Source: Pirellulales bacterium
Lineage (GTDB): Bacteria; Planctomycetota; Planctomycetia; Pirellulales; JAICIG01
Direction: 5' to 3'
Assembly (NCBI GenBank): GCA_035533075.1
Contig: DATLUO010000267.1
Span: forward strand, 1-55,302
Length of the DNA stretch: 55,302 bases
In this document: positions 12,624 through 26,602 of the stretch, piece after piece
Position numbering within the stretch: position 1 is the first letter of the stretch
How the letters are laid out: each line of letters starts with the position of its first letter
Program-made: the position numbers and the translations under genes
The notes under the pieces: generated by a model
Databases searched by the model: none
Seen by the model: the letters and a program-made list of their open reading frames with translations, nothing else
Told to the model about the DNA's origin: nothing

Positions 12624-12659
12624 GTGCCCAACGCCTTTCGGCATCAACGAACGAACGAC
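12624..12659 (-). CRISPR. Solitary repeat of the second (I-MYXAN-type) array
   Basis: These 36 bp match the 16411-16591 repeat with one difference (T to C at position 5 on the + strand, inside the presumed 3' handle). It stands alone: no second copy follows at spacer distance. Its right end is 4 bp from the degenerate terminal repeat of the type I-C-like array. It looks like the distal end of a type-B array joined to the distal end of the type-A array. Confidence 0.85.
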
Positions 12660-12663
12660 TCGC

Positions 12664-12915
12664 CCACCAGCCGACGAGTCCGTCGTGACGCGGCGGAAAC
12701 GATGCCGCCGCCGCATCGTGGTCGAATCTCTCGATGTTTCAATCCGCCGCCGCGCCATGACGCGGCGGAAACAGAGCTATCTGGACGACCAGCGTACTAT
12801 TCTTACGTTTCAATCCGCCGCCGCGCCGTGACGCGGCGGAAACGCCCGGTTCAAATTCCCGCTGTCCGCATGCCCGGAGTTTCAATCCGCCGCCGCGCCG
12901 TGACGCGGCGGAAAC
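12664..12915 (-). CRISPR. Short CRISPR array of the type I-C-like locus
   Basis: Three full 37-bp repeats lie at 12736-12772, 12807-12843 and 12879-12915, with spacers 12701-12735, 12773-12806 (34 nt) and 12844-12878 (35 nt). A decayed terminal repeat ends at 12700 and keeps only its first 17 nt in the leftward sense. Read leftward, the repeat begins GTTTCCGCCGCG, forms a perfect 8-bp stem (CCGCCGCG/CGCGGCGG, loop TCACGG) and ends with the classical ATTGAAAC handle. Transcription is therefore leftward, away from cas2, with the decayed repeat at the distal end as usual. The repeat at 12736 differs from the others by one base. Confidence 0.95.
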
Positions 12916-13099: not shown

Positions 13100-13390
13100 C
13101 TAAACCACCAGCGGGCCGTCGTAGTCGATGCGCCGGTCCTTGCCATGACTCTCCACCACCTCGTGAAAGTTGCCGACCAGGCGATACAATCGCAAACTGT
13201 CTTCCGCCGGGTCGATCTCGTCCAGCAACCGGCTGCGCAACCGCACGAACTCGGTGTCGCCGACGCTGCACTCGAAGACCGAGTATTGTACCCGCTGCCC
13301 GAAGTCGAGACAGACGCGGGCCACTCGCCGCAGCCGACGGCGGCCCTCCGGGGTGGTCGTTTGCACGTCGTAAGTCACCAACACGTTCAT
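13100..13390 (-). CDS. cas2: Cas2 (type I-C-like)
   Basis: A 96-residue Cas2 of the spacer-integration complex (Cas1-Cas2). It starts MNVLVTYDVQTTTPEGRRRL with the conserved Asp at residue 8 after the first strand, followed by VCLDFGQRVQYSVFECSVG, the family core. It ends RRIDYDGPLVV, a tail typical of type I-C Cas2. It lies between cas1 and the array on the same strand. The 50-bp gap to cas1 is almost filled by a CRISPR-repeat-like hairpin. Confidence 0.96.
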   Translation of the reverse strand: MNVLVTYDVQTTTPEGRRRLRRVARVCLDFGQRVQYSVFECSVGDTEFVRLRSRLLDEIDPAEDSLRLYRLVGNFHEVVESHGKDRRIDYDGPLVV

Positions 13391-13440: not shown

Positions 13441-14472
13441 CTATTTCAGTACCAACGCGGGATAATCGTCCAGGTCGCCACGCAGCGTGCGGGCCAACAG
13501 CCGGGCCTGCAAGTGCGGCAGCAGACCCACGGGCACCACCTCACCCAACAACGGATGCATCACCTCTTCGCGCTTCCGTTCCTGATAGGCCACCAACAGG
13601 GCCCGGCGGGTCTTGTCGTCCATCTGGACGCCGCCGGCCGCGTCGGTCGAAAAGCCGCCCGCTTGCACCTGCCGCCGATTGACGAGCGTCAGCACCAACC
13701 GGTCGGCCACCAGCGTGCGAAACTCTTCCATCAGGTCCAAGGCCAACGACGGGCGGCCCGGCCGGTCGACGTGCAGATAGCCGACCGCCGGGTCGAGGCC
13801 GACGCACTCCAACGCCGAATGACAGTCGTGCCGCACCAAGGCGTACACAAACGACAGCAGAGCGTTGATCGGATCGCGCGGCGGCCGGCGGCTGCGACTG
13901 GTGAGCGCAAACGTCTCGCGCTCGTGCCGCACCATTCGCGAGAAGGCCCCGAAGTAGGTCCGCGCCGTCTCCCCCTCGATACCGCGCGCCGCGTCAAGAT
14001 CGGCCACGGCCGGCAGACCCGCCAGCACGGCGGCCAGGTGCGCCGCCGCGGTCCGCAATGCCGCCGCGTCGTCTTCGCCGGCGTCGTCACGCGCTGCCCG
14101 GAGGAGCGTATTCCGCGCGTTCTGGATCTTGGCGGCGATCATCGGCCGCGCCAGTCGCAGCCGGGCAAGTGGATCGTCGGCCAACCGATACTGCCGCCGA
14201 CGCAACAGCACGTTGCCGTGAATCGGCGGCTCGACCCGCGCCAGAAACCGGCCCTGTTCCGACAAGAACGAGAACCCCAGCCGATGCTCGCCGCACGTCG
14301 CCAGCACGGCCGGACTGACCATGACGCGACCAAAGCAGACGACGCCTTCCAGGTGGTGCAGCGGCACCGTGAGCCGCACCTTGCCGTCGATCTTGACCCG
14401 CAGCGTCTGATGGTCGCGGGTCAGGTAAGCCCCTTGCGTGGTGATGAAGAGGGTGTTGGCGTGGGCTCGCAT
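13441..14472 (-). CDS. cas1: Cas1 integrase (type I-C-like)
   Basis: A 343-residue spacer integrase. The N-terminus NTLFITTQGAYLTRDHQTL and VCFGRVMVSPAVLATCGEH resemble type I-C Cas1. The metal-binding residues are visible as the Glu in GIEGETARTYFGAF, the His in VGYLHVDRPGRPS and the acidic LALDLMEEFR. Length and end (DLDDYPALVLK) are normal. The ATG at 14472 follows a GGGTTCA repeat that separates it from the PIN toxin gene; this repeat and the toxin pair interrupt the cas4-cas1 junction that is usually tight. Confidence 0.96.
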   Translation of the reverse strand: MRAHANTLFITTQGAYLTRDHQTLRVKIDGKVRLTVPLHHLEGVVCFGRVMVSPAVLATCGEHRLGFSFLSEQGRFLARVEPPIHGNVLLRRRQYRLADDPLARLRLARPMIAAKIQNARNTLLRAARDDAGEDDAAALRTAAAHLAAVLAGLPAVADLDAARGIEGETARTYFGAFSRMVRHERETFALTSRSRRPPRDPINALLSFVYALVRHDCHSALECVGLDPAVGYLHVDRPGRPSLALDLMEEFRTLVADRLVLTLVNRRQVQAGGFSTDAAGGVQMDDKTRRALLVAYQERKREEVMHPLLGEVVPVGLLPHLQARLLARTLRGDLDDYPALVLK

Positions 14473-14538: not shown

Positions 14539-14958
14539 TCAGGTGAAGGGATTGACGATGGTCACACCGTCGTAATCGGCGCCGTGCTGCATGTCTTCGC
14601 TGTAGAGGCGCGTGACGCCGGCCTCGTGACAGGCGGCGATCAGCAGGCTGTCCCAGTGAGATAGGGAGTAGCGTTCGTACAGATTGAAACCGCGCTCAAA
14701 AATGCGAACGGTGGGCAACTGCACTGAGAACAATTGCAGCACTTCTTGAAACCTGGTTTTGACTTCTTCGGCGGTTAGTCTTCCTCGTCCTTCCGCCTTA
14801 CGCAAGAAGGCAAGAAACTCGACGGCCACCTGCCACAACAGGACAGATTCAGGTGGCTTTGCGACTAAGTCGAACAATAGCTGTCGCGCCTTGGCCTGTT
14901 TACCTGGGTCCGCTGGATCGAAGGCATAGGCGAAAATATTGGTGTCAATCGCGTTCAT
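14539..14958 (-). CDS. PIN-domain toxin (VapC-like RNase)
   Basis: The 139-residue protein from the ATG at 14958 starts MNAIDTNIFAYAFD, with the first catalytic Asp in AIDTN. It keeps the Glu of VAVEFLAFLRK and SHWDSLLIAACHEAGV, then YSEDMQHG with the last acidic cluster, the PIN nuclease pattern. A longer frame starts at 15009 but lies inside the antitoxin. It overlaps the upstream antitoxin by 14 bp, as in translation-coupled toxin-antitoxin pairs. It presumably cleaves RNA when free (family knowledge). It is inserted between cas4 and cas1. Confidence 0.88.
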   Translation of the reverse strand: MNAIDTNIFAYAFDPADPGKQAKARQLLFDLVAKPPESVLLWQVAVEFLAFLRKAEGRGRLTAEEVKTRFQEVLQLFSVQLPTVRIFERGFNLYERYSLSHWDSLLIAACHEAGVTRLYSEDMQHGADYDGVTIVNPFT

Positions 14959-15166
14959 ACAATTCGTCTCGCGAGAACTTGCCGGCGAGACCGACGAGTG
15001 GTTTTTCATCGATTAGCCGCTGCAGCCGCTCCCACGCCGCCAGACTCCGATTAGGCGACTCGACGGGCTCGATCGTCAGCTTCACCCGTGTTTGATCGGG
15101 GAATGGAAGGACGACGTCCGGTTTCAAGACTCCGCCTTCAATGGTAGCCGTTAGCTCTGTTTTCAC
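14945..15166 (-). CDS. Antitoxin partner of the PIN toxin (DUF104/AbrB-like)
   Basis: The start is set at the GTG at 15166, with AAGGA 9 nt upstream; the frame is open further back but unsupported. The 73-residue product has VKTELTATIEGGVLKPD, a swapped-hairpin type beginning as in DUF104/AbrB-like antitoxins (ATYENGVLKP pattern), then LVGLAGKFSRDELYERD at the C-terminus, likely the toxin-binding tail. It lies directly before the PIN gene. Family assignment is by pattern only. Confidence 0.75.
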   Translation of the reverse strand: MKTELTATIEGGVLKPDVVLPFPDQTRVKLTIEPVESPNRSLAAWERLQRLIDEKPLVGLAGKFSRDELYERD

Positions 15167-15284: not shown

Positions 15285-15968
15285 TCATCCCTCATCTTTC
15301 GTTCCGATCGCAAACAGCCCGCGCTGGTATCGGGCCGCGCGCACTCGCTCGCCGAGCATTTCGGGCATGCACAACTCGTGGAGCGAGCAGCCGCGGCAGC
15401 GGGGCTTGTGTACGGGCGGGGGCGTTTCGCCGGAAGCAAACAGCTCGTGCAGCCGCCGCGCGGCGGCTTCGGTGCGGGCACGCAGGCGCTCGTCGAACAG
15501 GATCTCGCGTCGCCGTCGCGACTTGACGTGAAAAACCGCGCCGGCCGGCACGCTCACGCCCAGCATCTCTTCCAGGCACAGCGCCTGGGCGCAGAGCTGC
15601 ACGTCGTCGTTATCCCAGCGCCGCCGCTTGCCGCGCTTGTATTCGACCGGGTACGGTACTCCCTCTCCCTCCGGGAGAGGGCTGGGGTGAGGGGGGCGTG
15701 AATCGGCCGCCGCGCGAAACTCGACGAGATCGGCGATGCCGACCAGCCGCAGTCGTTCGCTGCGGACCCACAGTCCGCGGATGACGCGCCCGCGGCCGCC
15801 GAGTTCTTCCTCCGACGGGCCGGCATGCACTTTCTTGTGGGCGGTCGTTCCTTCCAGCGTGAAGCGGTTTTCGACCCAAACCTGTTCCACGCGGTGCATC
15901 GCGCACCGCCGCTCGCAGAACAGCAGGTCGTTCAGGGCCAGGATCGGCTGATAGTCGTCTTGGTCCAC
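15285..15968 (-). CDS. cas4: Cas4 nuclease (type I-C-like)
   Basis: A RecB-like iron-sulphur exonuclease that trims prespacers for Cas1-Cas2. Visible features are the Cys of LLFCERRC, the His of HKKVHAG, the Asp of GIADLVEF, the PVEYKRGK catalytic E-x-K, and the C-terminal CRGCSLHELC cluster. The 227-residue protein starts with GTG at 15968. An in-frame PLPEGEG palindrome (15661-15693) has been inserted between the nuclease Asp and the E-x-K motif, adding about 13 residues (SRPPHPSPLPEGEG). It is 8 bp downstream of a truncated frame, as in an operon. Confidence 0.95.
   Translation of the reverse strand: MDQDDYQPILALNDLLFCERRCAMHRVEQVWVENRFTLEGTTAHKKVHAGPSEEELGGRGRVIRGLWVRSERLRLVGIADLVEFRAAADSRPPHPSPLPEGEGVPYPVEYKRGKRRRWDNDDVQLCAQALCLEEMLGVSVPAGAVFHVKSRRRREILFDERLRARTEAAARRLHELFASGETPPPVHKPRCRGCSLHELCMPEMLGERVRAARYQRGLFAIGTKDEG
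15661..15693. repeat. PLPEGEG palindromic element inside cas4
   Basis: A 33-bp element beginning CCCTCTCCCTCCGGGAGAGG (arms CCCTCTCCC/GGGAGAGGG). It matches 18295-18327 inside the cas4-cas1 fusion at 32 of 33 bases. In both genes it is read in the frame that gives PLPEGEG. Confidence 0.9.
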
Positions 15969-16410: not shown

Positions 16411-16591
16411 GTGCTCAACGCCTTTCGGCATCAACGAACGAACGACGAGTCGGTATTGATCGCATTTTGGTACAAGATCGCGTGCTCAACGCCTTTCGGC
16501 ATCAACGAACGAACGACTTCGCCCCAGCCCTCCGGCGCGTCGGCCGAAAGATGTTGTGCTCAACGCCTTTCGGCATCAACGAACGAACGAC
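16411..16591 (-). CRISPR. CRISPR array of the I-MYXAN-type locus
   Basis: Three identical 36-bp repeats at 16411-16446, 16482-16517 and 16556-16591 enclose spacers of 35 nt (16447-16481) and 38 nt (16518-16555). Read leftward, the repeat starts GTCGTTCGTTCGTTG and forms a hairpin GATGCC-GAAA-GGCGTT followed by the 3' end GAGCAC, giving an 8-nt handle TTGAGCAC. Leftward transcription agrees with position (directly downstream of cas2) and with the pseudo-repeat pair at 25775-25882. The conserved block to the left is the one argument for the opposite sense. Confidence 0.93.
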
Positions 16592-16880: not shown

Positions 16881-17177
16881 CTACGCGAGCCGAAAACTGG
16901 GCGGCGGCTCCGCCCAACTCGCCTGATCGCCCGTCGAATGCTCCGGCACCTTCGCCGCACAGCCATCGCACAAAGGAATGATCAGCAGGTCATCTTCCTC
17001 GCCCATGATTTTGTTCAACTCCCAGTGCAGCTTCTCCAGCGTCTCGCGGTCGAGCCGGCAGCGGAAAACGCTGTATTGAACGCGGCCCCCATAGCCCTCC
17101 AGCTTTTTCGCCACGCGGCGCAGCCGCTTCGGGTCGCGAACGTCGTAACTCACCAGGTGCCAGTGTTTTTGGGCCAT
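16881..17177 (-). CDS. cas2: Cas2 of the I-MYXAN-type locus
   Basis: A 98-residue Cas2. It begins MAQKHWHLVSYDVRDPKRLR (conserved Asp at residue 12), followed by KLEGYGGRVQYSVFRCRLDR, the family core, and LLIIPLCDGCAAK. The C-terminal 20 residues (GDQASWAEPPPSFRLA) extend past the usual fold. It is the last gene of the operon, 60 bp after cas4-cas1, and is clearly different from the Cas2 at 13100-13390. Confidence 0.95.
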   Translation of the reverse strand: MAQKHWHLVSYDVRDPKRLRRVAKKLEGYGGRVQYSVFRCRLDRETLEKLHWELNKIMGEEDDLLIIPLCDGCAAKVPEHSTGDQASWAEPPPSFRLA

Positions 17178-17237
17178 GCACGTGACTCTTTTGGTCGACC
17201 GTTTGTCTTCGTCTCCGCCACGGAGTGTCGCTGCTAC

Positions 17238-18965
17238 TTAGCGGACCCGCATCCGAGCAAACAGCCCCGGACATCCGCTCCACTCTTTTTCCAACAGCCG
17301 CAGCTCCAACTCGATCATCCGCGCGTATGTCAGCGCTTGCCCGGTGTGGGGATGCTTGTGAGATTCTTCAAGTCGCTCCTCGAAGAGCTTGATCGCGGTC
17401 TTTCGCCCCTCGTCCGAGAGCCAGACCTGGCCGGGCGAAATCGCGAAGTCGCGGTCCACGCTCCATTGCAGCCGGTTGACGCTGCCGATCAGCGGTATCT
17501 CCCAGAGGATCGTGCGGAACAGTTCCATCACGTCGAGCACCAGCGGCGGCGCCGCGGTCCGCGGCCGATGATAGAAGCTCAGCGCCGGCTCCAGCCCCAC
17601 CGCCACGGCCGAGCGATGCACCGCCGTTTGCAGCATGGCATAGCCAAAACTCAGCAGCGCGTTGAAGCGGTCGCGCGGCGGATGCTTCGATCTGCCCGCC
17701 GGCCGCATTTCCGCCGGAACCTGCGGCGACAGCAGCGAGGGAAGGGCCGCAAAGTAGGCTTTGGCCGCCATCCCCAGCAGCGATTCTTCAGAGCCGGCCG
17801 TGTTGACCTTGCGCAGCGACTCGCGAATGCGCTCCAAATGCGGCAGGCAGGCGCCGCGCACCGGCCCGTCGCCCCGCGATGCTCGCAGCAGGTAGCGAAG
17901 CTGCGTTTCGACCTTGGCGTGGACCAGCCGCCGGGCAAGACGCAGCCGCGTGGCGCCGTCGGTCAGGCCGGCATATTGGCGAATGCGCTGCTGCACTCGG
18001 CCGGGCTGCCCGGTGGTGCCGGCGGCGAACTTCCCGCCCATCGTCATCCACTGCACGGCCACGCCGCGGCTGGCGCAGAGATGGATCGCCTGCGTGGTCA
18101 CCTGCCCGAAACCGTGAATCACCAAGGCGTCGATCTCCTCGATCGGCACGCGCTGCGTCACCTTTTCACGGGCTTCGTTCTCGCTGGTCACGACGAGCGT
18201 TTCGCCGCTACGGCCGACGCGGGCCTTGGGTGACACCACGTGCAGCGTCTGCCGCTCGCGGTTCGACGGGAACAGCGTCGGAACATGCCTCGCTCCCTCT
18301 CCCTCCGGGAGAGGGCCGGGGTGAGGGCGGTTCGCGTCTGGTTCGGCCTCCTCATCGCCGAGGTGCTCGTGAGCCGCCAGCCTTTCCTCTTCGGGCAGAC
18401 AGACCGGCGCCAACGAGCAGCGGACGCAGAGGTTTTCATTTTCGGCGACCGGCGGCCGGGCAACCGTCTGACGCAGCTCGCGGGCACGCTCAATCGCGCG
18501 GCGCAGATCGTCCTTGGCCGCGTCGTCGATTTCGATGAAGGCGGTCACATTGTCGGCATGGTAGCGGACCCGCGCCTGCGTCACCGTTTCGCCGAGCGCT
18601 TCTTCCAAGAGCACGGCGTAGGCGACGGCCTGAATGCGATCGCTGGGCCAGGCCAGCACTTCCTTGGCCGGTCCGCGATGGCAGCGGCCGCGTTTATGTT
18701 CGTAGGCCACCCAGCGGCCATCACGTCGGCGGACGGCATCGACCTTGCCCACCAGGCCCCACGTTTCGCTCGCGACCTCCAAGCTGCGGTGTTCCGGCGC
18801 TTCGTCGTCGAGCGGCACGACGTCATCGTGCAGCCGCCGGCCGGCGTAGACCAGGGCGGTTGGATTTTGGATACCCTCGACCTCGGTGAAATAGAAAAGT
18901 CGCTCGCAATAGAGCAGATCGTGCAGCGAAATGACGCGTAGCGGCGCCTCAAGATCGACCGACAT
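17238..18965 (-). CDS. cas4-cas1: Cas4-Cas1 fusion (I-MYXAN type)
   Basis: A 575-residue fusion of prespacer-trimming nuclease and integrase. Cas4 part (about 1-205): LLYCERLFYF, VGKVDAVRR, AYEHKRG (E-x-K) and NLCVRCSLAPVC (iron-sulphur cysteines). Cas1 part (about 245-575): SEESLLGMAAKAYFAAL, SFYHRPRTAAPP and LVLDVMELFRT give the Glu, His and acidic metal ligands. The linker carries the PLPEGEG element (18295-18327). The ATG at 18965 overlaps the cas5 stop as TAATG, so the open stretch back to 19043 is not used. The fusion is typical of Myxococcus dev-type loci. Confidence 0.96.
   Translation of the reverse strand: MSVDLEAPLRVISLHDLLYCERLFYFTEVEGIQNPTALVYAGRRLHDDVVPLDDEAPEHRSLEVASETWGLVGKVDAVRRRDGRWVAYEHKRGRCHRGPAKEVLAWPSDRIQAVAYAVLLEEALGETVTQARVRYHADNVTAFIEIDDAAKDDLRRAIERARELRQTVARPPVAENENLCVRCSLAPVCLPEEERLAAHEHLGDEEAEPDANRPHPGPLPEGEGARHVPTLFPSNRERQTLHVVSPKARVGRSGETLVVTSENEAREKVTQRVPIEEIDALVIHGFGQVTTQAIHLCASRGVAVQWMTMGGKFAAGTTGQPGRVQQRIRQYAGLTDGATRLRLARRLVHAKVETQLRYLLRASRGDGPVRGACLPHLERIRESLRKVNTAGSEESLLGMAAKAYFAALPSLLSPQVPAEMRPAGRSKHPPRDRFNALLSFGYAMLQTAVHRSAVAVGLEPALSFYHRPRTAAPPLVLDVMELFRTILWEIPLIGSVNRLQWSVDRDFAISPGQVWLSDEGRKTAIKLFEERLEESHKHPHTGQALTYARMIELELRLLEKEWSGCPGLFARMRVR
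18295..18327. repeat. PLPEGEG palindromic element inside cas4-cas1
   Basis: The second copy of the 33-bp palindrome found in the other cas4, here read in frame as PHPGPLPEGEG in the linker between the Cas4 and Cas1 domains. Confidence 0.9.
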
Positions 18966-19777
18966 TAGTTCTTTCCACGACGGCTGGGCTTCCGTGCGGG
19001 TGTGGCCGGAGTTTCCATCGCTGGCGGCGTAATAGTCGTCCATGCTAATTGCGGCGGCTCACCAATGCAAGCTTCTGACTGCGGGGCATACAATGCCGAA
19101 GCCGTGCGTGACAAGTCGGCGCGATCGATCAGCGTGGTAAGCCGAGTCGTGCGGCCGCGCGGGCCAGAACCCGGATCCGCGATGACACGCTCGTACCATC
19201 GCACTGGGCCAGGTTCGGGCAGCGTTTCAATGCGGTCAATGAGGAAGGCATTATCACCGATGAATGGAACGCCATAGCGTCGTTCAGAAAAATCACCGGC
19301 GATCCCGCGAACCACGCGGTGCGTCAGATCGTCGTCGGCGCGTAAGGCGATCACCGCGCGAAACCCAGAAAGATACTCGCGACGGACGGGCGCGATGTTG
19401 TATTTATTCCCCTTTGTAGATTCAGCCCTCGCAGCGCCAGACGTGCCGACCGGATAGTTGTGCAACTGCTGAAAGACGGTCTGCACGCGCGGAAAGAGGA
19501 CGTCCACGGCGATAGGCACTTTCGTGCGACCTCGCAACATGTATTCAGGCACGCCAACCGCGATTTCCATCGCCGGCAACCCTGGTCGCGTGAGACTTGC
19601 TGGCACTTTGCCGCCGTGGCCCGGCTCGTCCTCGCGCAAACGCGAGTCGATTCCCGCCAAGTTCAAAACGAGGCCATAGGCGGCCGATGGCGTAATAAAG
19701 GTCGCTGTCGGCCGGTACCAGCCCGCGGTGAACGTGCGGAAGACCGCGAATGGCGCCTCGACGTACAGGACAAGCAT
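18965..19777 (-). CDS. cas5: Cas5 (DevS-like)
   Basis: A Cascade subunit that caps the 5' handle of the crRNA. The 270-residue protein opens MLVLYVEAPFAVFRTFTAGW followed by YRPTATFITPSAAYGLVLNLAG, the DevS/Cas5 signature of Myxococcus-type loci. RREYLSGFRAVIALR and RRYGVPFIGDNAFLIDRIE are further family-like stretches. The C-terminus (ETPATPARKPSRRGKN) is a basic, probably disordered tail. The ATG at 19777 overlaps the cas7 stop (TGATG). M. xanthus DevS is known to act in autoregulation of its operon. Confidence 0.93.
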   Translation of the reverse strand: MLVLYVEAPFAVFRTFTAGWYRPTATFITPSAAYGLVLNLAGIDSRLREDEPGHGGKVPASLTRPGLPAMEIAVGVPEYMLRGRTKVPIAVDVLFPRVQTVFQQLHNYPVGTSGAARAESTKGNKYNIAPVRREYLSGFRAVIALRADDDLTHRVVRGIAGDFSERRYGVPFIGDNAFLIDRIETLPEPGPVRWYERVIADPGSGPRGRTTRLTTLIDRADLSRTASALYAPQSEACIGEPPQLAWTTITPPAMETPATPARKPSRRGKN

Positions 19778-20787
19778 CACGCTCCTCCCAAGAATCGGTC
19801 GGCTACCGTTGCCAGCAAGCGGCGCGGATCGCGGTCGACGGTTACTCCCCGTTCAGTTAAGCGCTCGATGTGCCCCTTTACTGCAGCGCCGTCTTCTTCT
19901 GCTTGATTTTCTGGCCGCTGCTTTTTCGCTTGCTCTTTTTTCATCTGTTCGTCAACGGTCTCCATGTCCTTAATGACCTTTCCGCCGATGAAGAATTCGT
20001 TGCCAGGATAATCGGGCGGATCGCGGAGGATGCCATCAATCACCTCGGGAAACTCTCCCTTCGAATTGAATCCGTAAGTCTGATAGCCGGCGACGAGTTG
20101 TTTCGTGAGCCGCACGACGATGCTGGCGGGGGCCATCTCGAAGTAGCTTCGCGCGTGATTCCCGGCAACGCCGTTCAGTTCGCCGATTGCTTGAAGGAGG
20201 TTGCGAGTCCAGTCCGACTTCGATTTGCAGTCCAGGAGATTGAGCGCGAAAGGATACTGGAACGCCGAGACCACGGTCTCACGGTGGAGCAATGCAGACG
20301 TCGCCGCGTTTTTGTAAGCGCTTCCTTCTGCTGCGAGCGGTGATTGCGTGAACACGGCGTTATGCCGGTAGGGCTCGAGCGCCTTGGCGAGATTCATGCG
20401 GAGGACCGAATCCCGTTTGAACGTGAAATCCTCAGCGGCTTTCTTGCCTCGGCTTTCTTCGATCTCCTTTAGGTATTTCTTGCGGTCGGCACTGCCTGCC
20501 GCAACAAGGTAGCCAAAGAAAAAATCGTCGGCGTACTTGCCGGGGTCGGGTAGGTCAGCGAATTTGACCGCGAGTTGCTCCTCGTCGTGCAAGCGTTGGC
20601 GATTGCACGGTAGCCCATACTTGGCAAGCGTTTCGCGAAGCGCATTCCGCATGCTCTCCGGCGAAAAGATAGGGTAGTCAAAGCGGCCATCGGTCACCTT
20701 TTGGATGACAGTCCGGTTAAGTTCCGATTCCCCGCGGTAATTGGCCGAAGGGGCCGGGTATGTTAGTACGGTGGCGAATAAATTCAT
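19777..20787 (-). CDS. cas7: Cas7 (DevR-like backbone subunit)
   Basis: Forms the crRNA-coating backbone of Cascade; its thumb flips out every sixth guide base (family knowledge). The 336 residues include MNLFATVLTYPAPSANYRGE, YPIFSPESMRNALRETLAKY, FQYPFALNLLDCKSKSDWTR, and GVAGNHARSYFEMAPASIVV, the last being characteristic of DevR/Cst2-type Cas7. A lysine/glutamate-rich stretch lies near residues 285-305 (EQMKKEQAKKQRPENQAEED). The ATG at 20787 overlaps the cas8 stop (ATGA). Confidence 0.94.
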   Translation of the reverse strand: MNLFATVLTYPAPSANYRGESELNRTVIQKVTDGRFDYPIFSPESMRNALRETLAKYGLPCNRQRLHDEEQLAVKFADLPDPGKYADDFFFGYLVAAGSADRKKYLKEIEESRGKKAAEDFTFKRDSVLRMNLAKALEPYRHNAVFTQSPLAAEGSAYKNAATSALLHRETVVSAFQYPFALNLLDCKSKSDWTRNLLQAIGELNGVAGNHARSYFEMAPASIVVRLTKQLVAGYQTYGFNSKGEFPEVIDGILRDPPDYPGNEFFIGGKVIKDMETVDEQMKKEQAKKQRPENQAEEDGAAVKGHIERLTERGVTVDRDPRRLLATVADRFLGGA

Positions 20788-22616
20788 TGCTTAGCCTCAC
20801 GAGGTTGCAGGGGAGTCCAAGAATTGGCGGAGAGCGCCATGAGAGTTAGAGTTTTGACTTTGTCGGTACCGTTGAACAGCGCCGCCGCGATTCGCTCGAA
20901 CAGCTTACCGCCCATGTAGTGCCCAACGCGGAAGAATGTGCCGCTGAAGTGCTCGACGAACGCTTGGTCGTGCCTGGAACGAAACTCCAAAAACAGCCGC
21001 TCGGCGAGTTTCTGACGCGCGTCTACCGCATCGGCGAGGTTCTTCGCTTCCACAGGGTTTGCAGGAGACCGTCGCTCCTTGCGAAATTTGTGGAAGTCAA
21101 AGCCGATGTCTCTCTTCAAACGCTCATCAAGATAGCGGCGGGTAAACCGGTTTATTGCCGAAGCGAGTACATCATCATCGCTTGGCGGATCAGTCACGTC
21201 GTTTTCAGTCGGCATAGCTTGGATCACCTCCAGGATCTTTTTCCGGGCGTCTACCCAGAACCACGAAAATGTTGGGGAACTTTTGGTCGGGATGAAAAAA
21301 GGGTGCGGCCATTCGTCGAAAACATCAGCGAAAGGGTCAAACCATGGCCGATCATCGAGCAAAGCGGCCAGCAAGGCGCGACGAAAGAACGGATTCGCAA
21401 AACGAGGCTTTCCATCCGGCCGCCCGGCAATCTCGCAGTAGTCTTCGGCGAGGTGTGGGCGTGGCTCGACTCTACCCGTCGCAAGGAACTTAACGTTGTT
21501 GCCTTCCTTCGCGACGTGGAAGTAATCAACAGCGCTTATAGCCGGTCCAACTTCGCTTTCCACGATGTGCGGCGGAATTAGGCGTGCAAGATGCTCGATG
21601 AATGACAATCCGCCCTCAGCGGGAAGGTCAACGATGCTCTCTGTCGGCCTCATTCCCGCGAGCTTTGTGCTCAGGCCCGCGAGTAATCGCGGGTAGTCGC
21701 GAAGAAACTCTCGCAAGTCGGCGACTTCTGGCAACGCAACCGCAAAATGGGGCGATCGGTCTTTTTTTCCACGCCTGCCAAGGTAGGTGCCGCCATCGCG
21801 ATCGACAAATCGCGGAACGAATATAAGGATACTTAGAGGCCAAAAGTGAAGGAGGAGATTCTGCTCGATCTGGCCAATGAGGGGGATCGCCTCCGCGTTT
21901 CGCTCCATTGCGCCGAGCAGCAGTGCCCCTGAAAGCTTGCCGACCGCGTGGGTTCCTCGTGCATTGGCGGCTGCATACTTCAGCAAGTCGTCCCACGAGC
22001 TCCCGTCACCCCTTCCGGACTCGGCCGCTTCAGCTTCATCGTCGGTGTCGCCATCGGCGACTGCAATGACGTCGGCCAGTGCATGTTTTGCGGCAGCGCG
22101 CTTGATAAACGGCGCCTTCTTCTTGCTGTCACGAATAACCTGCCAGATCAAGTCGCGCCAGAGCCTTACCCAATCCGCGCTGGGAAGGTAATGGCGAAGA
22201 GTAGCGAGCGATGGCGTGAGCTCAAGATAGACGTACCCCTCTACGGTCGTCTGATTCCCTTTTTTATCCGTCTTGATGAACGCCGCGCGTCGTAGCGGAG
22301 GAACCAGCCGCTTTTGAGCGCCTTTCCCTTTCGTAAACGGCTTTTCACGCGGCGGTCCTTCGATGAGTTCGGCGTCGTAAATGTCATCAAACAATGCAGC
22401 AGTCGTTTCACGCGTGAACTCGACATGCACGATGGTTCGAGGGCATTGGTCGTCCCAACGATAGCTGGGCGATGGCTTCCCTCGATTCCGAAGAGACTCA
22501 ATCTCCAAGAGTAACCCAGCGAGACCGGCCTTGTGCTGCGCCGTCGGCAAGCTCATCAAATCGTAGGTGACGGTTACGGCAGTTGGTTTTGCTGCGGTCT
22601 TGGTCGACTTTGCCAT
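20784..22616 (-). CDS. cas8: Cas8 large subunit (Cmx8/DevT-like)
   Basis: The large subunit of the MYXAN-type Cascade, expected to read the PAM. The 610-residue protein begins MAKSTKTAAKPTAVTVTYDL followed by MSLPTAQHKAGLAGLLLEIE, a beginning I associate with Cmx8/DevT. Other parts (WVRLWRDLIWQVIRDSKKKA, LLLHFWPLSILIFVPRFVDR, VRVGHYMG-like GTFFRVGHYMGGKLF) carry no motif that I can assign. The acidic stretch GDTDDEAEAAESGRGDGSS near 200 is probably a flexible loop. The ATG at 22616 overlaps the cas3 stop (TGATG). Identification rests on both sequence and operon position. Confidence 0.88.
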   Translation of the reverse strand: MAKSTKTAAKPTAVTVTYDLMSLPTAQHKAGLAGLLLEIESLRNRGKPSPSYRWDDQCPRTIVHVEFTRETTAALFDDIYDAELIEGPPREKPFTKGKGAQKRLVPPLRRAAFIKTDKKGNQTTVEGYVYLELTPSLATLRHYLPSADWVRLWRDLIWQVIRDSKKKAPFIKRAAAKHALADVIAVADGDTDDEAEAAESGRGDGSSWDDLLKYAAANARGTHAVGKLSGALLLGAMERNAEAIPLIGQIEQNLLLHFWPLSILIFVPRFVDRDGGTYLGRRGKKDRSPHFAVALPEVADLREFLRDYPRLLAGLSTKLAGMRPTESIVDLPAEGGLSFIEHLARLIPPHIVESEVGPAISAVDYFHVAKEGNNVKFLATGRVEPRPHLAEDYCEIAGRPDGKPRFANPFFRRALLAALLDDRPWFDPFADVFDEWPHPFFIPTKSSPTFSWFWVDARKKILEVIQAMPTENDVTDPPSDDDVLASAINRFTRRYLDERLKRDIGFDFHKFRKERRSPANPVEAKNLADAVDARQKLAERLFLEFRSRHDQAFVEHFSGTFFRVGHYMGGKLFERIAAALFNGTDKVKTLTLMALSANSWTPLQPREAKQ

Positions 22617-25036
22617 CAGCACTGCCCCCATTGATCGAGCGTCGAACCGTAGAAGCCGATGGCCGGATGGTAGTGCCCAGCCTCGGCGATCCCTAAGTAC
22701 GGCGGCAACTGCTTGTGTTCAGGATGCATTTCGTTATCGCGGCAACGGGCCAGCCGTATCGGAACTGGCAAGATGAAGCCCGGTTTGTCCTTCGCCCTTG
22801 CGGAAAGGTAATCATGCACGTCGTCCGGCAGCACACACTGGCGGTTGTGCTCCTCAGAATCGCGGAAATCTTCGTCGCCAGCAACGGCGAACGGGCCGCT
22901 TTCGAGAAACATGCTCAGTTTGTCGCCACCCCAAGGTGGACTTGGCACCTTACTAAGGGCCTCCTCGAGTGCCGCTTGCGACAACTCCGTGTCGGCGACC
23001 AGGGCAAGGAATTCTTCCAAGCCGGTCAGGTCTTCGCGGGAGTACGGGTTTTGGTCCGCCGGCTTGTAGACGATCACTTCACCGGATTTGGACAGCGGTC
23101 GTGCGTCCCGTTCCCGGTTCGCGCGGCCCATTCTCTGGATCAACGATGTGACTGGACACTCCTCCGTGATGAGCAGGTCGACGTCCAAATCGAGGCTCAT
23201 TTCGCAAACCTGCGTCGTAATGCCGATGCCGGCCCCTCCCGTCGCCTTCAAGTTGTCCACGACGTTGTTGTGCCGCTTCACGCGGTCCGAAAGCTTAAAG
23301 CGGCTGTGGTAGCAGTAGACCGGTGTCCCGTCTGCCATCGTCAGGTGCGTATTCTTCGACGCCGGGTCGAAGTTGGCGGCAAAACGCTCGACAATCTCGT
23401 GACAGCGAGCCACAGTGTTCACGACCCAAAGAACGCGACGGCCGCTGCGGAGCGCTTCGCGGGCGCGTTCTTCGGCTGCGTTGCGTGACGCGGCGCGCGT
23501 CAACCGGTAGCGCGGCATCCCCGCGATCGTTTCCAGCTCGCCACGCTTTTCGGCGAACACCGTCAGCCCGCAACCTCCTGCCTCTTGGCTCTTTTCCAAT
23601 TGGTCGCGGCGATCGGGCGGCAGCGTCGCGGTCATGCACAAGACTGGGACGTTGAAGTTGTTCAAGAACGCCTTGAGCGCGGAAAACATCTTCTGGTCAA
23701 AGCTATGCACTTCGTCGATGACGATGATCGAATCCGCAAGCACCGGGAGCATGCACACCGGCCCGTAGCCGTATTGGAGGAAGGCCAGAAATTGGTCGAC
23801 GGTCGCCGAGAACGCCCGCTTTTCCCAAAAGCCAAGAGCATACAACCGGCGGTCGGCCTCATAGCTCAGCCCGTGGCGCGAATCCTGCTCGTTGTCGAAC
23901 ATGTCCCTGAGGTCGAATTCCGCCGTGCCGTGCATCAACGCAGCATCGGCTTCGGGCGCCCAGGAAACGTAATCCTTGAACCCTTCCTTGGCCGTCGCTC
24001 GCGTCGGGTAGAGAAACAGGACGTGGCCCGCAGGATTCTTTGCGGCCTGTGCGGCAATCCAGCGCCACGCGGCTAGCGTCTTGCCGCTACCGCAGGGAGC
24101 CAAGAGCAGCGCGCGGTCCGGCAAATCGTCGCACGCGACTTGGAAATCGTTCCACTCAAACTTGCCCTTGCCGTGCTTCCTGAATTGAGCGTTCAGGTCG
24201 TCAACGCGCCGATTGATGATCTCGGTCCGAACGCGCTCTCCGTCCCATAGTATGCCTGCATCGAACTGTTGGCGAATCCACCCCGGTATTGTCTTGTCGA
24301 CCCGCGCTAGCCCTGAACCGGCGGCATCCGCGGCGATCAGCCCGCCGCGGACCGCCAAGAGCATTCGCTTGCGTGTCAGGTTCGCATCAAGCTCATTGCG
24401 GAAGGGGTTGAAAACCTCCTTTATCACGTGCTTCCGCATCTCCCGGATGTTTGCCGGCGGCTTCTCGAACGACCAAGCCTCTGGAATCTCGCGTAAATTG
24501 ACCTGCCCCAATCCGAGTAAGTCACCCGTCGCGCCGGCCAACTCCTCAAACTGGTCCGTGCGGTGTAGCAAGCCAATCCTCGCCCTATCGTTCATGCGCC
24601 GCGCAAACCCAAACTCCCTGTGCGGATCGTACGCCGCTTTAAGATGGTGCGTCATCACGGCCGAGAGAACGAGTGGCCGGTCGAGCGCCACATTGCCCGC
24701 CAGCCATTCCCAGACGACGGGTCGTGACATGAGGAGGGCGCTCAGGTGCTCGTGCCGAATTCCTTGGGAGCCGCGCTTGCCTCGCACGTCGTCTTGAAAA
24801 CCGTCGTTGGCTTTCCCCCAGTCGTGCAACGCGCACGAAGCGAGAAGATTGATGTAGAATGTCGGCCACGCTTCGTCGGGCAGTTTGAAGAACCGAAGCC
24901 AACAGTGGCCCAGCCTCGTTGGTCCATCTGCACTGCCGAACAGCGCCACCGCCGCGTCGATTACGTCGCGCGTGTGTCGCACCAAGGACTTCTCAACACC
25001 GTTGCGCGGCGATTTCGCCAAAAGTTTGTCAGCCAT
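22616..25036 (-). CDS. cas3: Cas3 nuclease-helicase
   Basis: The 806-residue Cas3 degrades DNA displaced by Cascade. An N-terminal HD nuclease domain shows VRHTRDVIDAA and SCALHDWGKANDGFQ (HD pair). The superfamily-2 helicase follows: LLAPCGSGKTLAAWRW (Walker A), IIVIDEVHSFD (DEVH box), CMTATLPP (motif III) and SLIQRMGRANRERDARPLSK (motif VI). All key residues are present, so interference looks functional. The ATG at 25036 overlaps the cas6 stop by 8 bp. A longer frame to 25081 lies inside cas6. Confidence 0.96.
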   Translation of the reverse strand: MADKLLAKSPRNGVEKSLVRHTRDVIDAAVALFGSADGPTRLGHCWLRFFKLPDEAWPTFYINLLASCALHDWGKANDGFQDDVRGKRGSQGIRHEHLSALLMSRPVVWEWLAGNVALDRPLVLSAVMTHHLKAAYDPHREFGFARRMNDRARIGLLHRTDQFEELAGATGDLLGLGQVNLREIPEAWSFEKPPANIREMRKHVIKEVFNPFRNELDANLTRKRMLLAVRGGLIAADAAGSGLARVDKTIPGWIRQQFDAGILWDGERVRTEIINRRVDDLNAQFRKHGKGKFEWNDFQVACDDLPDRALLLAPCGSGKTLAAWRWIAAQAAKNPAGHVLFLYPTRATAKEGFKDYVSWAPEADAALMHGTAEFDLRDMFDNEQDSRHGLSYEADRRLYALGFWEKRAFSATVDQFLAFLQYGYGPVCMLPVLADSIIVIDEVHSFDQKMFSALKAFLNNFNVPVLCMTATLPPDRRDQLEKSQEAGGCGLTVFAEKRGELETIAGMPRYRLTRAASRNAAEERAREALRSGRRVLWVVNTVARCHEIVERFAANFDPASKNTHLTMADGTPVYCYHSRFKLSDRVKRHNNVVDNLKATGGAGIGITTQVCEMSLDLDVDLLITEECPVTSLIQRMGRANRERDARPLSKSGEVIVYKPADQNPYSREDLTGLEEFLALVADTELSQAALEEALSKVPSPPWGGDKLSMFLESGPFAVAGDEDFRDSEEHNRQCVLPDDVHDYLSARAKDKPGFILPVPIRLARCRDNEMHPEHKQLPPYLGIAEAGHYHPAIGFYGSTLDQWGQC

Positions 25037-25661
25037 CGTTCGCTTCCTGAGCGCGAGGGTTGAACCGCACGAAAATGCCACAGCCCATGTGACGGCGACC
25101 GCCGAGGCCGCTCTCCTGAAGCGAGATCGACTCGTGTGCGGTCAACTCAGAGGCGAGCACTTCGTAGCCTACGACCTCCTTGTCCTTAACGCGCAACGTG
25201 CGACGTTTACCCACGGTGAGCTGGGCCTCGGGCGAGACATTCAGAGCATCGAGTTGACGCCGAGCCGCAGCGAGGAATTCGGTCTCATCGGGCGGGTGAG
25301 GCGCCGCTCGATCACCGGAAACCTTGATCGTAACAAGGCGACTGCGAAGCGCCGTGGCAGCGCTAAGCGCATAAACCTGCGGCACGCCGACGCGCACCGG
25401 CTGCCGACCGATGTTGAGCTGTTTGCCGGCCAGCGGCAGAAGATCGGCGATTCGCTCGGGCGCGACCCGTATCGTCAGCCGACTGAAGTCGCAGATCTGC
25501 ATTCGCCGATCGCCGATCAACCGCCCGCGAATCGGATGAACACCGATGCCGTTTGGTTCATGCATTGACGACAGCAACCGCGAAACCGCGGCGTAGAGGT
25601 GATAGCCGTGATCGGCGGGAATGTCGCAAGTGCCGGTGAGAATAAAGGAAAGGTCGATCAT
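25029..25661 (-). CDS. cas6: Cas6 crRNA-processing endonuclease (Cmx6-like)
   Basis: First gene of the operon; cuts the precursor at the repeat hairpin. The 210 residues include FILTGTCDIPADHGYHLYAA, IGVHPIRGRLIG, the VGVPQVYAL and LVTIKVSGD strands, and a C-terminal glycine-rich LQESGLGGRRHMGCGIFVRF, the Cas6 RNA-binding loop. The N-terminal His of ADHGYHLYAAVSRL is a candidate catalytic residue. The pattern matches the Cmx6 family of Myxococcus-type loci. AGAGG lies about 8 nt before the ATG at 25661. The upstream 220 bp hold the putative promoter and pseudo-array. Confidence 0.92.
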   Translation of the reverse strand: MIDLSFILTGTCDIPADHGYHLYAAVSRLLSSMHEPNGIGVHPIRGRLIGDRRMQICDFSRLTIRVAPERIADLLPLAGKQLNIGRQPVRVGVPQVYALSAATALRSRLVTIKVSGDRAAPHPPDETEFLAAARRQLDALNVSPEAQLTVGKRRTLRVKDKEVVGYEVLASELTAHESISLQESGLGGRRHMGCGIFVRFNPRAQEANDG

Positions 25662-25710
25662 CGATGGAACCTCTTGCTAACCGGGGCGCGAAAGGGTAGA
25701 TTGTGTGATG

Positions 25711-25727
25711 TTGTTATTTTGCTTGGT
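25711..25727 (+). promoter_or_regulatory. Predicted target of the pseudo-spacer in the cas6 upstream region
   Basis: TTGTTATTTTGCTTGGT here matches the first 17 nt of the 35-nt pseudo-spacer at 25812-25828 (TTGTTCTTTTGGTTGGT) except at positions 6 and 12. Similarity stops from position 18. The base triplet on the PAM side is ATG. It lies 50 bp upstream of the cas6 ATG and directly downstream of a candidate promoter. Binding of a guided Cascade here would obstruct cas transcription (inference). Confidence 0.75.
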
Positions 25728-25767
25728 ACGACTCCCGCATCGTACTGTTTGACACGATCGTTCGCAA
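25726..25767 (-). promoter_or_regulatory. Candidate cas operon promoter with inverted repeat
   Basis: Leftward reading gives TTGCGA (25762-25767), a 17-bp spacer and TACGAT (25739-25744), each 4 of 6 to the sigma70 consensus. An inverted repeat GTACGA/TCGTAC (25726-25731, 25740-25745) overlaps the -10. On the other strand a perfect TTGACA at 25749-25754 could be the -35 of a rightward promoter for the pseudo-array, though its -10 is weak. Confidence 0.4.
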
Positions 25768-25774
25768 CTGGTTC

Positions 25775-25882
25775 GCATGATCTCCTCGGATGCCGGAAAG
25801 GCGTTGAGCACTTGTTCTTTTGGTTGGTGACTGACAACCGTTGAGCGTGGTCTGTTCGTCGATGCCGCACGGCGCTAGAAGA
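25775..25882 (+). ncRNA. Degenerate mini-CRISPR (pseudo-repeat, 35-nt pseudo-spacer, pseudo-repeat), CreR-like guide RNA candidate
   Basis: Read rightward, the first pseudo-repeat (25775-25811) keeps the last 22 nt of the 16411-16591 repeat with only one inserted G, including the hairpin GATGCC-GGAAA-GGCGTT and the perfect handle TTGAGCAC. Exactly 35 nt follow (25812-25846), the same length as the first spacer of the real array. The second pseudo-repeat (25847-25882) matches 22 of its first 28 nt, including GATGCC-GCAC-GGC, then decays. Each copy is preserved on the side facing the pseudo-spacer. Its first 17 nt match 25711-25727 except at positions 6 and 12. Confidence 0.82.
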
Positions 25883-25962
25883 AACCGACTCGTTACTGCG
25901 GGCTTTCCCGGCATCTCTAAGCTGAACTTGCTTTGCTCGCCGACGCGGGCGAAAATGAAGGC

Positions 25963-26199
25963 ATGGAGATTCCCGGTCGAGTGCAGAACGGCGTCGTGGT
26001 TTTGGAAGGTGCCCCCACGCTGCCGGAGGGGGCGCACGTAACCGTTTGTTTTCACGAATCGATCGCGTCACGGCCGGAAACGAAGAAGCAGCGGATCGAA
26101 GTGCCGCTCGTTCGAACCGGTCAACCCGGCACCGTGAAGCTGACCGCGCAGCGGATCGCGGAGATTCTCGACGAAGACGATGTTTCTCCCCGACGTTAA
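25963..26199 (+). CDS. Antitoxin-like protein paired with the PIN gene
   Basis: A 78-residue product from the ATG at 25963: MEIPGRVQNGVVVLEGAPTL followed by PEGAHVTVCF, the short beta-rich beginning of DUF104/AbrB-type antitoxins, then a C-terminal TAQRIAEILDEDDVSPRR. An earlier TTG at 25933 is less likely. It overlaps the following PIN toxin gene by 20 bp. It starts about 80 bp right of the pseudo-array on the same strand and could be co-transcribed with it. Confidence 0.7.
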   Translation: MEIPGRVQNGVVVLEGAPTLPEGAHVTVCFHESIASRPETKKQRIEVPLVRTGQPGTVKLTAQRIAEILDEDDVSPRR

Positions 26200-26602
26200 T
26201 CTTTGGCTGGCGCTGACGTTCGATTCTCACGTCCACCATCCCGACGCGAAAAACTGGTTCGACGGCTTGTCCGACGACATTTGCGTGTTCTGCCGGATGA
26301 CGCAGCAAGGATTCCTGCGATTGTCCACCAACCCAAGAGCCTTCGGGCAGCACGCCCTGACGCTCCGCCAAGCGTGGCATGAATACGACGCCTTTCAAAG
26401 CGACCCGCGGGTCTCGTACGCCGACGAGCCGGCGAATCTCGAAACGCATTGGCGCAATTGGACTCGGCAGCAGTCGTTCTCCCCACACGTCTGGAACGAC
26501 GCCTATCTGGCGGCCTTCGCCCTGTCGGCAAGTCTCCAGATGGTCACTTTCGATCAGGCGTTTGCACAGTATCATGGGGTGAAGTGCGTCTTTCTGCCGT
26601 AA
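26180..26602 (+). CDS. PIN-domain toxin (VapC-like)
   Basis: A 140-residue PIN nuclease: MFLPDVNLWLALTFDSHVHH with the first Asp in PDVN, then ICVFCRMTQQGFLRLSTN, VWNDAYLAAFALSASLQMVT with the central Asp, and FDQAFAQY with the last Asp. The VNLWLA/HPxA layout is that of a distinct VapC subfamily. The ATG at 26180 lies inside the antitoxin, giving translational coupling. Unlike the PIN toxin at 14539-14958, it stands beside rather than inside a cas operon. Confidence 0.88.
   Translation: MFLPDVNLWLALTFDSHVHHPDAKNWFDGLSDDICVFCRMTQQGFLRLSTNPRAFGQHALTLRQAWHEYDAFQSDPRVSYADEPANLETHWRNWTRQQSFSPHVWNDAYLAAFALSASLQMVTFDQAFAQYHGVKCVFLP

Follow-up and report, generated by a model that had tools for sequence, protein, structure and literature searches.

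The locus studied here raises the question of whether a complete cas operon can carry a guide directed at its own start and, if so, what that guide is for. The window, a stretch of 55,302 nucleotides (nt) from a Pirellulales bacterium (contig DATLUO010000267.1), contains such an operon of the clustered regularly interspaced short palindromic repeats (CRISPR)-Cas type on its minus strand. The original prediction had described it as a complete Myxococcus-dev-type operon with only two spacers and a self-directed guide, and had asked whether it plays a regulatory role, as the dev locus of M. xanthus does in development. We consider it, with a probability of about 85%, to be a type I-B (Myxan/Cmx8) operon equipped with an autorepression element resembling CreR, the cas-regulating (cas-repressing) CRISPR RNA-like (crRNA-like) RNAs that Liu et al. 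reportedly described in 2023 for types I-B, I-E and V-A.

A self-directed guide upstream of cas6

Upstream of cas6, and outside the interval 16881-25661 that the original prediction had described, a degenerate repeat-spacer-repeat unit was found on the plus strand at 25776-25882. Nucleotides 1-17 of its guide match 25711-25727, a promoter-like site ahead of cas6 that is preceded by ATG as protospacer-adjacent motif (PAM); only positions 6 and 12 of the guide are mismatched. Leaving these two positions free, the seed pattern occurred twice in the 8.54-Mb genome, once at the guide and once at the target. The self-directed guide is present as predicted, far beyond chance.

We infer the following course of transcription, processing, binding and repression without cutting. 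A plus-strand crRNA-like RNA would be transcribed from 25776-25882, processed by Cas6 and loaded into the Cas5-7-8 complex (Cascade), and guide nucleotides 1-17, except for the flipped 6th and 12th bases, would pair with the ATG-flanked site at the start of the cas operon. Because pairing would end at 17 of about 34 nt, we propose that Cascade binds without productive Cas3 cleavage and may thus act as a repressor of its own operon, the repression being relieved, perhaps, by array crRNAs competing for Cascade or by anti-CRISPRs. The guide would imply regulation, as had been suggested, although of the cas operon itself and not of host development.

Recurrence, PAM and mismatch pattern

Relatives were collected by a contig scan with a Cas6 alignment, in which the best 80 of 130 candidates were kept, yielding 79 loci, or 80 with the window (locus handles begin with L, genome handles with G); at least 300 bp upstream was available in 77 of the 80 regions, window included, and 3 were shorter. 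A search for the repeat handle returned 25 raw psi hits, of which 21 psi-elements in 20 loci were retained after inspection by eye had removed those in L047, L050 and L097 and one of the three in L085. Guides with a self-target were thereby found in 18 of the 80 cas6 loci, across many phyla. With no PAM condition imposed, the best self-match had at most two mismatches for 17 of 21 elements, compared with 5 of 418 in the cross-locus control and 12 of 1050 shuffled guides.

The PAM emerged from the same comparison. ATG preceded the best match in 18 of 21 own-region cases, 23 of 418 cross-locus cases and 51 of 1050 shuffled cases, ties between best matches having been settled towards ATG alike in all three sets. 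A second scan of 105 regions, run without a PAM filter and excluding targets that are themselves repeats, gave 17 hits with a handle mismatch of 0-1, 16 of them behind ATG, one behind GTG and none behind any other trinucleotide. When the handle criterion was relaxed in a broader seed scan, other trinucleotides also stood before hits, many of which came from simple repeats in L096. Because the Myxan Cmx8 Cascade of Synechocystis prefers AYG in binding assays (PMC11096372), the ATG recovered without reference to a PAM equals the measured one. ATG was not confirmed by two M. xanthus spacers, one dev spacer, which equals phage Mx8 over 37/37 positions with the flank ATC, and one second-array spacer, which matches with five mismatches and the flank ACG, a further search with the second array having returned no hit; ATY is bound moderately by the Synechocystis Cascade (PMC11096372).

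Alignment of 22 guide-target pairs, from 18 of the 20 loci and from four Myxococcus loci described below, which are related and not independent, revealed a mismatch pattern; the alignment did not include L087, L096 or the second element of L085, and it is no evidence for the PAM because only ATG or GTG was allowed before the target. Mismatches fell at position 6 in 17 pairs, at 12 in 15, at 18 in 17, at 9 in 8 and at 15 in 5, whereas the remaining positions of 1-17 had 0-3 each, and past about position 21 agreement was near chance. The counts at 6 and 12 are partly selected, because both positions had been left free when the elements were first found; position 18 had not been used. In type I Cascades, every sixth base is known to be flipped.

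Changes in the guide were mirrored in the target in 9 of 9 cases in Myxococcus, 7 of 10 in Synergistota and 24 of 25 in three planctomycetes, counted pairwise with positions 6, 9 and 12 excluded. At the target, a sigma-70-like promoter in the cas sense scored p<=0.05, with that region as background, for 14 of 22 pairs, compared with 2 of 22 in the opposite sense, and several targets carry TTGACA with a good -10, for example in L040, L045, L061 and L064.

Some loci are arranged differently. In L040, L045, L046, L074 and L091, cas3 lies upstream of cas6, the guide between both, and the target between guide and cas6. In three gammaproteobacterial loci (L071, L081, L090), the guide runs in the cas sense and its ATG-flanked target, on the opposite strand, is another 315-350 bp or so upstream; these guides may target a different gene for regulation. 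Genes that look by eye like WYL/DeoR-type regulators lie upstream of cas6 in some loci (L007, L010, L039, L085).

The dev loci of Myxococcus and the alternatives

Within subtype I-B, the complete operon of the window belongs to the Cmx8 branch, of which it is an ordinary representative. The closest solved relatives of its Cas8, Cas7 and Cas5 are chains of the type I-B 'Myxan' Cascade of Synechocystis PCC 6714 (8h67/8ip0), and Pfam and PADLOC label its Cas8 'Cas8b, I-B'. An ordinary I-B label had been named in advance as an outcome that would overturn the dev-type assignment, which is partly a matter of naming, since Cmx8/Myxan is now called Cas8b (PMC11096372). DevT of M. xanthus, by contrast, is Cas8a1/Cmx1 (TIGR03485 422.8 bits, TIGR03486 218.5 bits), a different large subunit, so that the 'Cmx8/DevT' of the original prediction is not one thing. 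As BLAST detected no similarity between the window Cas8 and DevT (best 18.9 bits, E 0.69), the window system has the dev layout but represents a sister variant, not the dev system: the MYXAN type, the dev gene order and the complete genes stand, whereas the identity with dev does not. Window Cas7 and DevR share 29%. A tblastn search with the window proteins over the 79 loci separated one group with a Cmx8-like set from another with similarity only in Cas3, Cas7 and Cas4/Cas1; the layout is common to both, while the effector differs. There is also no room for DevI in the window, where 46 bp separate the target PAM from the cas6 start. Because a Cas6 tree placed the window among Planctomycetota, with Myxococcus on a distant branch, the suggested transfer between planctomycetes and myxobacteria was not seen by this quick, Cas6-only method. 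No relatives were found in viral contigs.

Among 27 Myxococcus genomes, 17 carry Cmx6, and four loci, L101 (G415), L104 (G402), L107 (G399) and L108 (G407), have a degenerate handle, GGTGTTGAGCAA, before cas6. The guides that follow match an ATG-preceded site lying 309-355 bp upstream of cas6; apart from positions 6 and 12 there is a single mismatch, and in three genomes (G415, G402, G399) the seed pattern occurs at guide and target only. The differences of the L108 guide from the other three recur identically in its target, which accounts for the 9/9 pairwise count given above. G415 is M. xanthus: its DdvA open reading frame (ORF) aligns along its full 991 residues with PDB 8rot_B, the printed alignment lines showing no difference, and the promoter motif published for MXAN7280 is present nearby. 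Here a 40-codon ORF with a GTG start, which we take to be DevI from its place and its length of 40 residues, lies between target and guide. Here, as in the three relatives, the guide is thus encoded within the operon and in its sense, with devI on one side and cas6 on the other, and it targets the leader of devI. The predicted RNA would carry the repeat handle followed by TTGGTGTCTGCTCAGG. In L102, L103, L105 and L106, ORF, guide and target are all lacking together; across L101-L108 the three are jointly present or absent, seemingly at the same gene junction upstream of cas6. No ATG guide-target pair was found in the other Myxococcales Cmx6 loci (8 of 9 new loci, L137 being left out), several of which look non-dev.

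DevTRS autoregulates dev negatively by an unknown mechanism, matching spacers being seemingly absent, and Cas3 and Cas6 are dispensable for it (PMC8616872). A review citing Rajagopalan and Kroos 2017 states that Cas5-7-8 uses 'a distinct antisense RNA' on devI (PMC8730458), which may be related prior work. A guide within the dev transcript aimed at its own leader fits both the requirement for Cas8, Cas7 and Cas5 and the dispensability of Cas3. The dispensability of Cas6 in M. xanthus counts against this part of our interpretation; the loss of Cas6 could be covered, because the same contig carries a second Cmx6 gene close to an array with a repeat that departs from the dev repeat at 2/36 positions. 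We regard it as likely that DevTRS autoregulation is RNA-guided repression of the CreR type, in which the guide encoded between devI and cas6 would direct Cas5-7-8 to the ATG-flanked site in the devI leader, and that the developmental role grew from an autorepression loop widespread in Myxan-type systems, including that of this planctomycete.

What can be read from the sequences, namely the element, its unique self-match, the PAM, the mismatch pattern, the recurrence with guide-target co-variation and the promoter-like targets, argues for CreR-like repression of the window operon, and several observations weigh against it. Psi-repeat 2, with its 13 mismatches in 36, has a best fold that is not the repeat hairpin; a standard promoter and terminator scan of the window lists nothing, the candidate promoter being below threshold; and the PAM-reading loop, GNS in Synechocystis Cas5, corresponds to GTS in the window Cas5. 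Three kept elements, those of L087 and L096 (four mismatches, though behind ATG) and the second of L085, lack a good target. By the criterion used, no element was found in 60 of the 80 loci (3 of the 80 having less than 300 bp upstream), and its presence needs 16 changes on the Cas6 tree.

An addiction module of the CreTA/CrePA type, in which the guide mainly represses a toxin gene, either an RNA or the neighbouring PIN-domain gene, and not the cas operon, is in our view unlikely. A small ORF and a PIN-domain gene (25933-26602, plus strand), possibly a toxin-antitoxin pair, lie directly downstream of the guide, the mini-array architecture is common to CreA (PMC9458426), and the three gammaproteobacterial targets lie far upstream on the other strand; however, the window target is on the cas6 side of the guide and not between guide and PIN gene, and for 14 of 22 pairs the promoter-like target sequence is oriented towards the cas genes. 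Recruitment of the operon, as in M. xanthus, to a developmental programme of the host or to some other task outside immunity would account for the dev-like gene order, the short array and the self-directed guide, yet it seems very improbable, given that Cas8 is unlike DevT, that DevI has no room, that the adaptation genes are complete and that the guide seed has no other match in the genome. We give scarcely any credence to a functionless relic, a degenerate leftover CRISPR unit with a spacer from the operon's own DNA: its degenerate repeats and the mere two spacers of the array would be expected, but 18 of 80 loci, differing in sequence, have a self-match with a PAM, guide and target co-vary, and mismatches sit at 6, 12 and 18.

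Collectively, CreR-like autorepression would suggest that operons of the Myxan type commonly include guides that limit their own expression, and that ordinary autoregulation of cas genes was the starting point of a well-known case of CRISPR recruitment. If true, the so far unexplained restraint of a development gene by Cas proteins in M. xanthus would gain an RNA-guided mechanism, and with guide, target, PAM and mismatch pattern in hand, point mutations in an organism amenable to genetics could test this directly.

The operon, its surroundings and known systems

The operon consists of seven complete genes, cas6-cas3-cas8-cas7-cas5-cas4/cas1-cas2, the first six of which overlap one another. Cas6 and cas3 overlap by 8 bp (cas6 end 25029, cas3 ATG 25036), followed by TGATG at cas3/cas8, ATGA at cas8/cas7, TGATG at cas7/cas5 and TAATG at cas5/cas4-cas1; cas2 starts 60 bp past cas4/cas1. 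The coordinates bear out the gene order, place and overlapping junctions from cas6 to cas4/cas1 that had been predicted, as well as the two-spacer array. In NCBIfam profile searches, Cas6, Cmx8, Cas5 and Cas1 exceeded the cut-offs of their MYXAN models; Cas7 remained below the cut-off of the cas_Cst2_DevR model TIGR02585 (56.5 of 72.75 bits) but is of the Myxan Cascade kind by its 310 bits to 8h67_E.

Features of the window, with model scores in bits and cut-offs in brackets
Feature	Position	Strand	Description
psi-repeat 1	25776-25811	+	hairpin and 3' handle GGCGTTGAGCAC retained
guide (psi-spacer)	25812-25845	+	34 nt, TTGTTCTTTTGGTTGGTGACTGACAACCGTTGAG
psi-repeat 2	25846-25882	+	degenerate; 13/36 mismatches to repeat in register 25847-25882
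self-target	25708-25727	+	PAM ATG (25708-25710) and TTGTTATTTTGCTTGGT, 15/17 matched
candidate cas promoter	25739-25767	-	TTGCGA-17-TACGAT; -10 ends 11 nt before target
cas6 (Cmx6)	25029-25661	-	TIGR02807 (cas6_cmx6) 175 (98.85); closest solved chain 8fcj_B, type I-B Cas6
cas3, HD and helicase	22616-25036	-	cas3_core 158.5 (102.45), cas3_HD 45.9; start at internal ATG 25036, ORF open from GTG 25081
cas8 (Cmx8/Cas8b large subunit)	20784-22616	-	TIGR04413 (MYXAN_cmx8) 348.9 (150); 8ip0_J 'Cmx8' 136; ORF open from 22631
cas7	19777-20787	-	8h67_E (Myxan I-B Cascade Cas7) 310
cas5 (Cmx5/DevS family)	18965-19777	-	TIGR02586 (cas5_cmx5_devS) 150.4 (111.5); 8h67_A 131; ORF open from GTG 19780
cas4/cas1 fusion	17238-18965	-	TIGR03983 (cas1_MYXAN) 425.8 (358.05), cas4 76.5 (65); ORF open from ATG 19043
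cas2	16881-17177	-	TIGR01573 60.9 (24.5)
CRISPR array	16411-16591	-	3 identical 36-nt repeats, 2 spacers; repeat GTCGTTCGTTCGTTGATGCCGAAAGGCGTTGAGCAC
type I-C cas4	15285-15968
type I-C module, PIN gene	14539-15009
type I-C cas1	13441-14472
type I-C cas2	about 13100-13390
type I-C array	about 12690-12910		short

The window repeat ends in GTTGAGCAC, like the repeats of relatives, and a fourth copy with one mismatch stands alone at 12624-12659. Between the Myxan array and this lone copy sits a type I-C adaptation module, and the sequence following the lone copy is similar to that following 16411, as if the module had been inserted with duplication of the flank. Near its left end (67-1698), the window has copies of a 36-nt stretch at 67, 523, 751, 1207 and 1663, a coding or tandem repeat.

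Among known systems, CreTA shares the psiR1-guide-psiR2 arrangement and Cascade as repressor (PMC9458426) and represses an RNA toxin; none was identified in the window, where small RNA toxins were not searched for. The Synechocystis PCC 6714 Myxan Cascade (8h67, 8ip0) shares Cmx8, the closest Cas7 and Cas5 and the AYG PAM; it was studied for interference and editing, and a self-directed guide does not appear in the parts of PMC11096372 covered here. The M. xanthus dev system shares the gene order, the Cas6, Cas5 and Cas4/Cas1 models, the repeat end GTTGAGCAC and a CreR-like guide with an ATG-flanked self-target; it differs in that DevT is Cas8a1/Cmx1, its guide lies within the operon and its target is the devI leader. 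CreR is a degenerate mini-CRISPR by the cas genes, with a guide partly complementary to the cas promoter, which Cascade represses (PMC12737573). Novelty was checked in the open-access literature, and an earlier description may exist. Judged by its sequence, the window guide has the design of a CreR: two degenerate repeats surround one guide adjoining the cas genes, with a seed-limited, PAM-flanked match to a cas promoter, weak in the window, whereas the Myxan branch (Cmx8 and Cmx1 Cas8 variants), the ATG PAM and the 17-nt pairing set the present elements apart.

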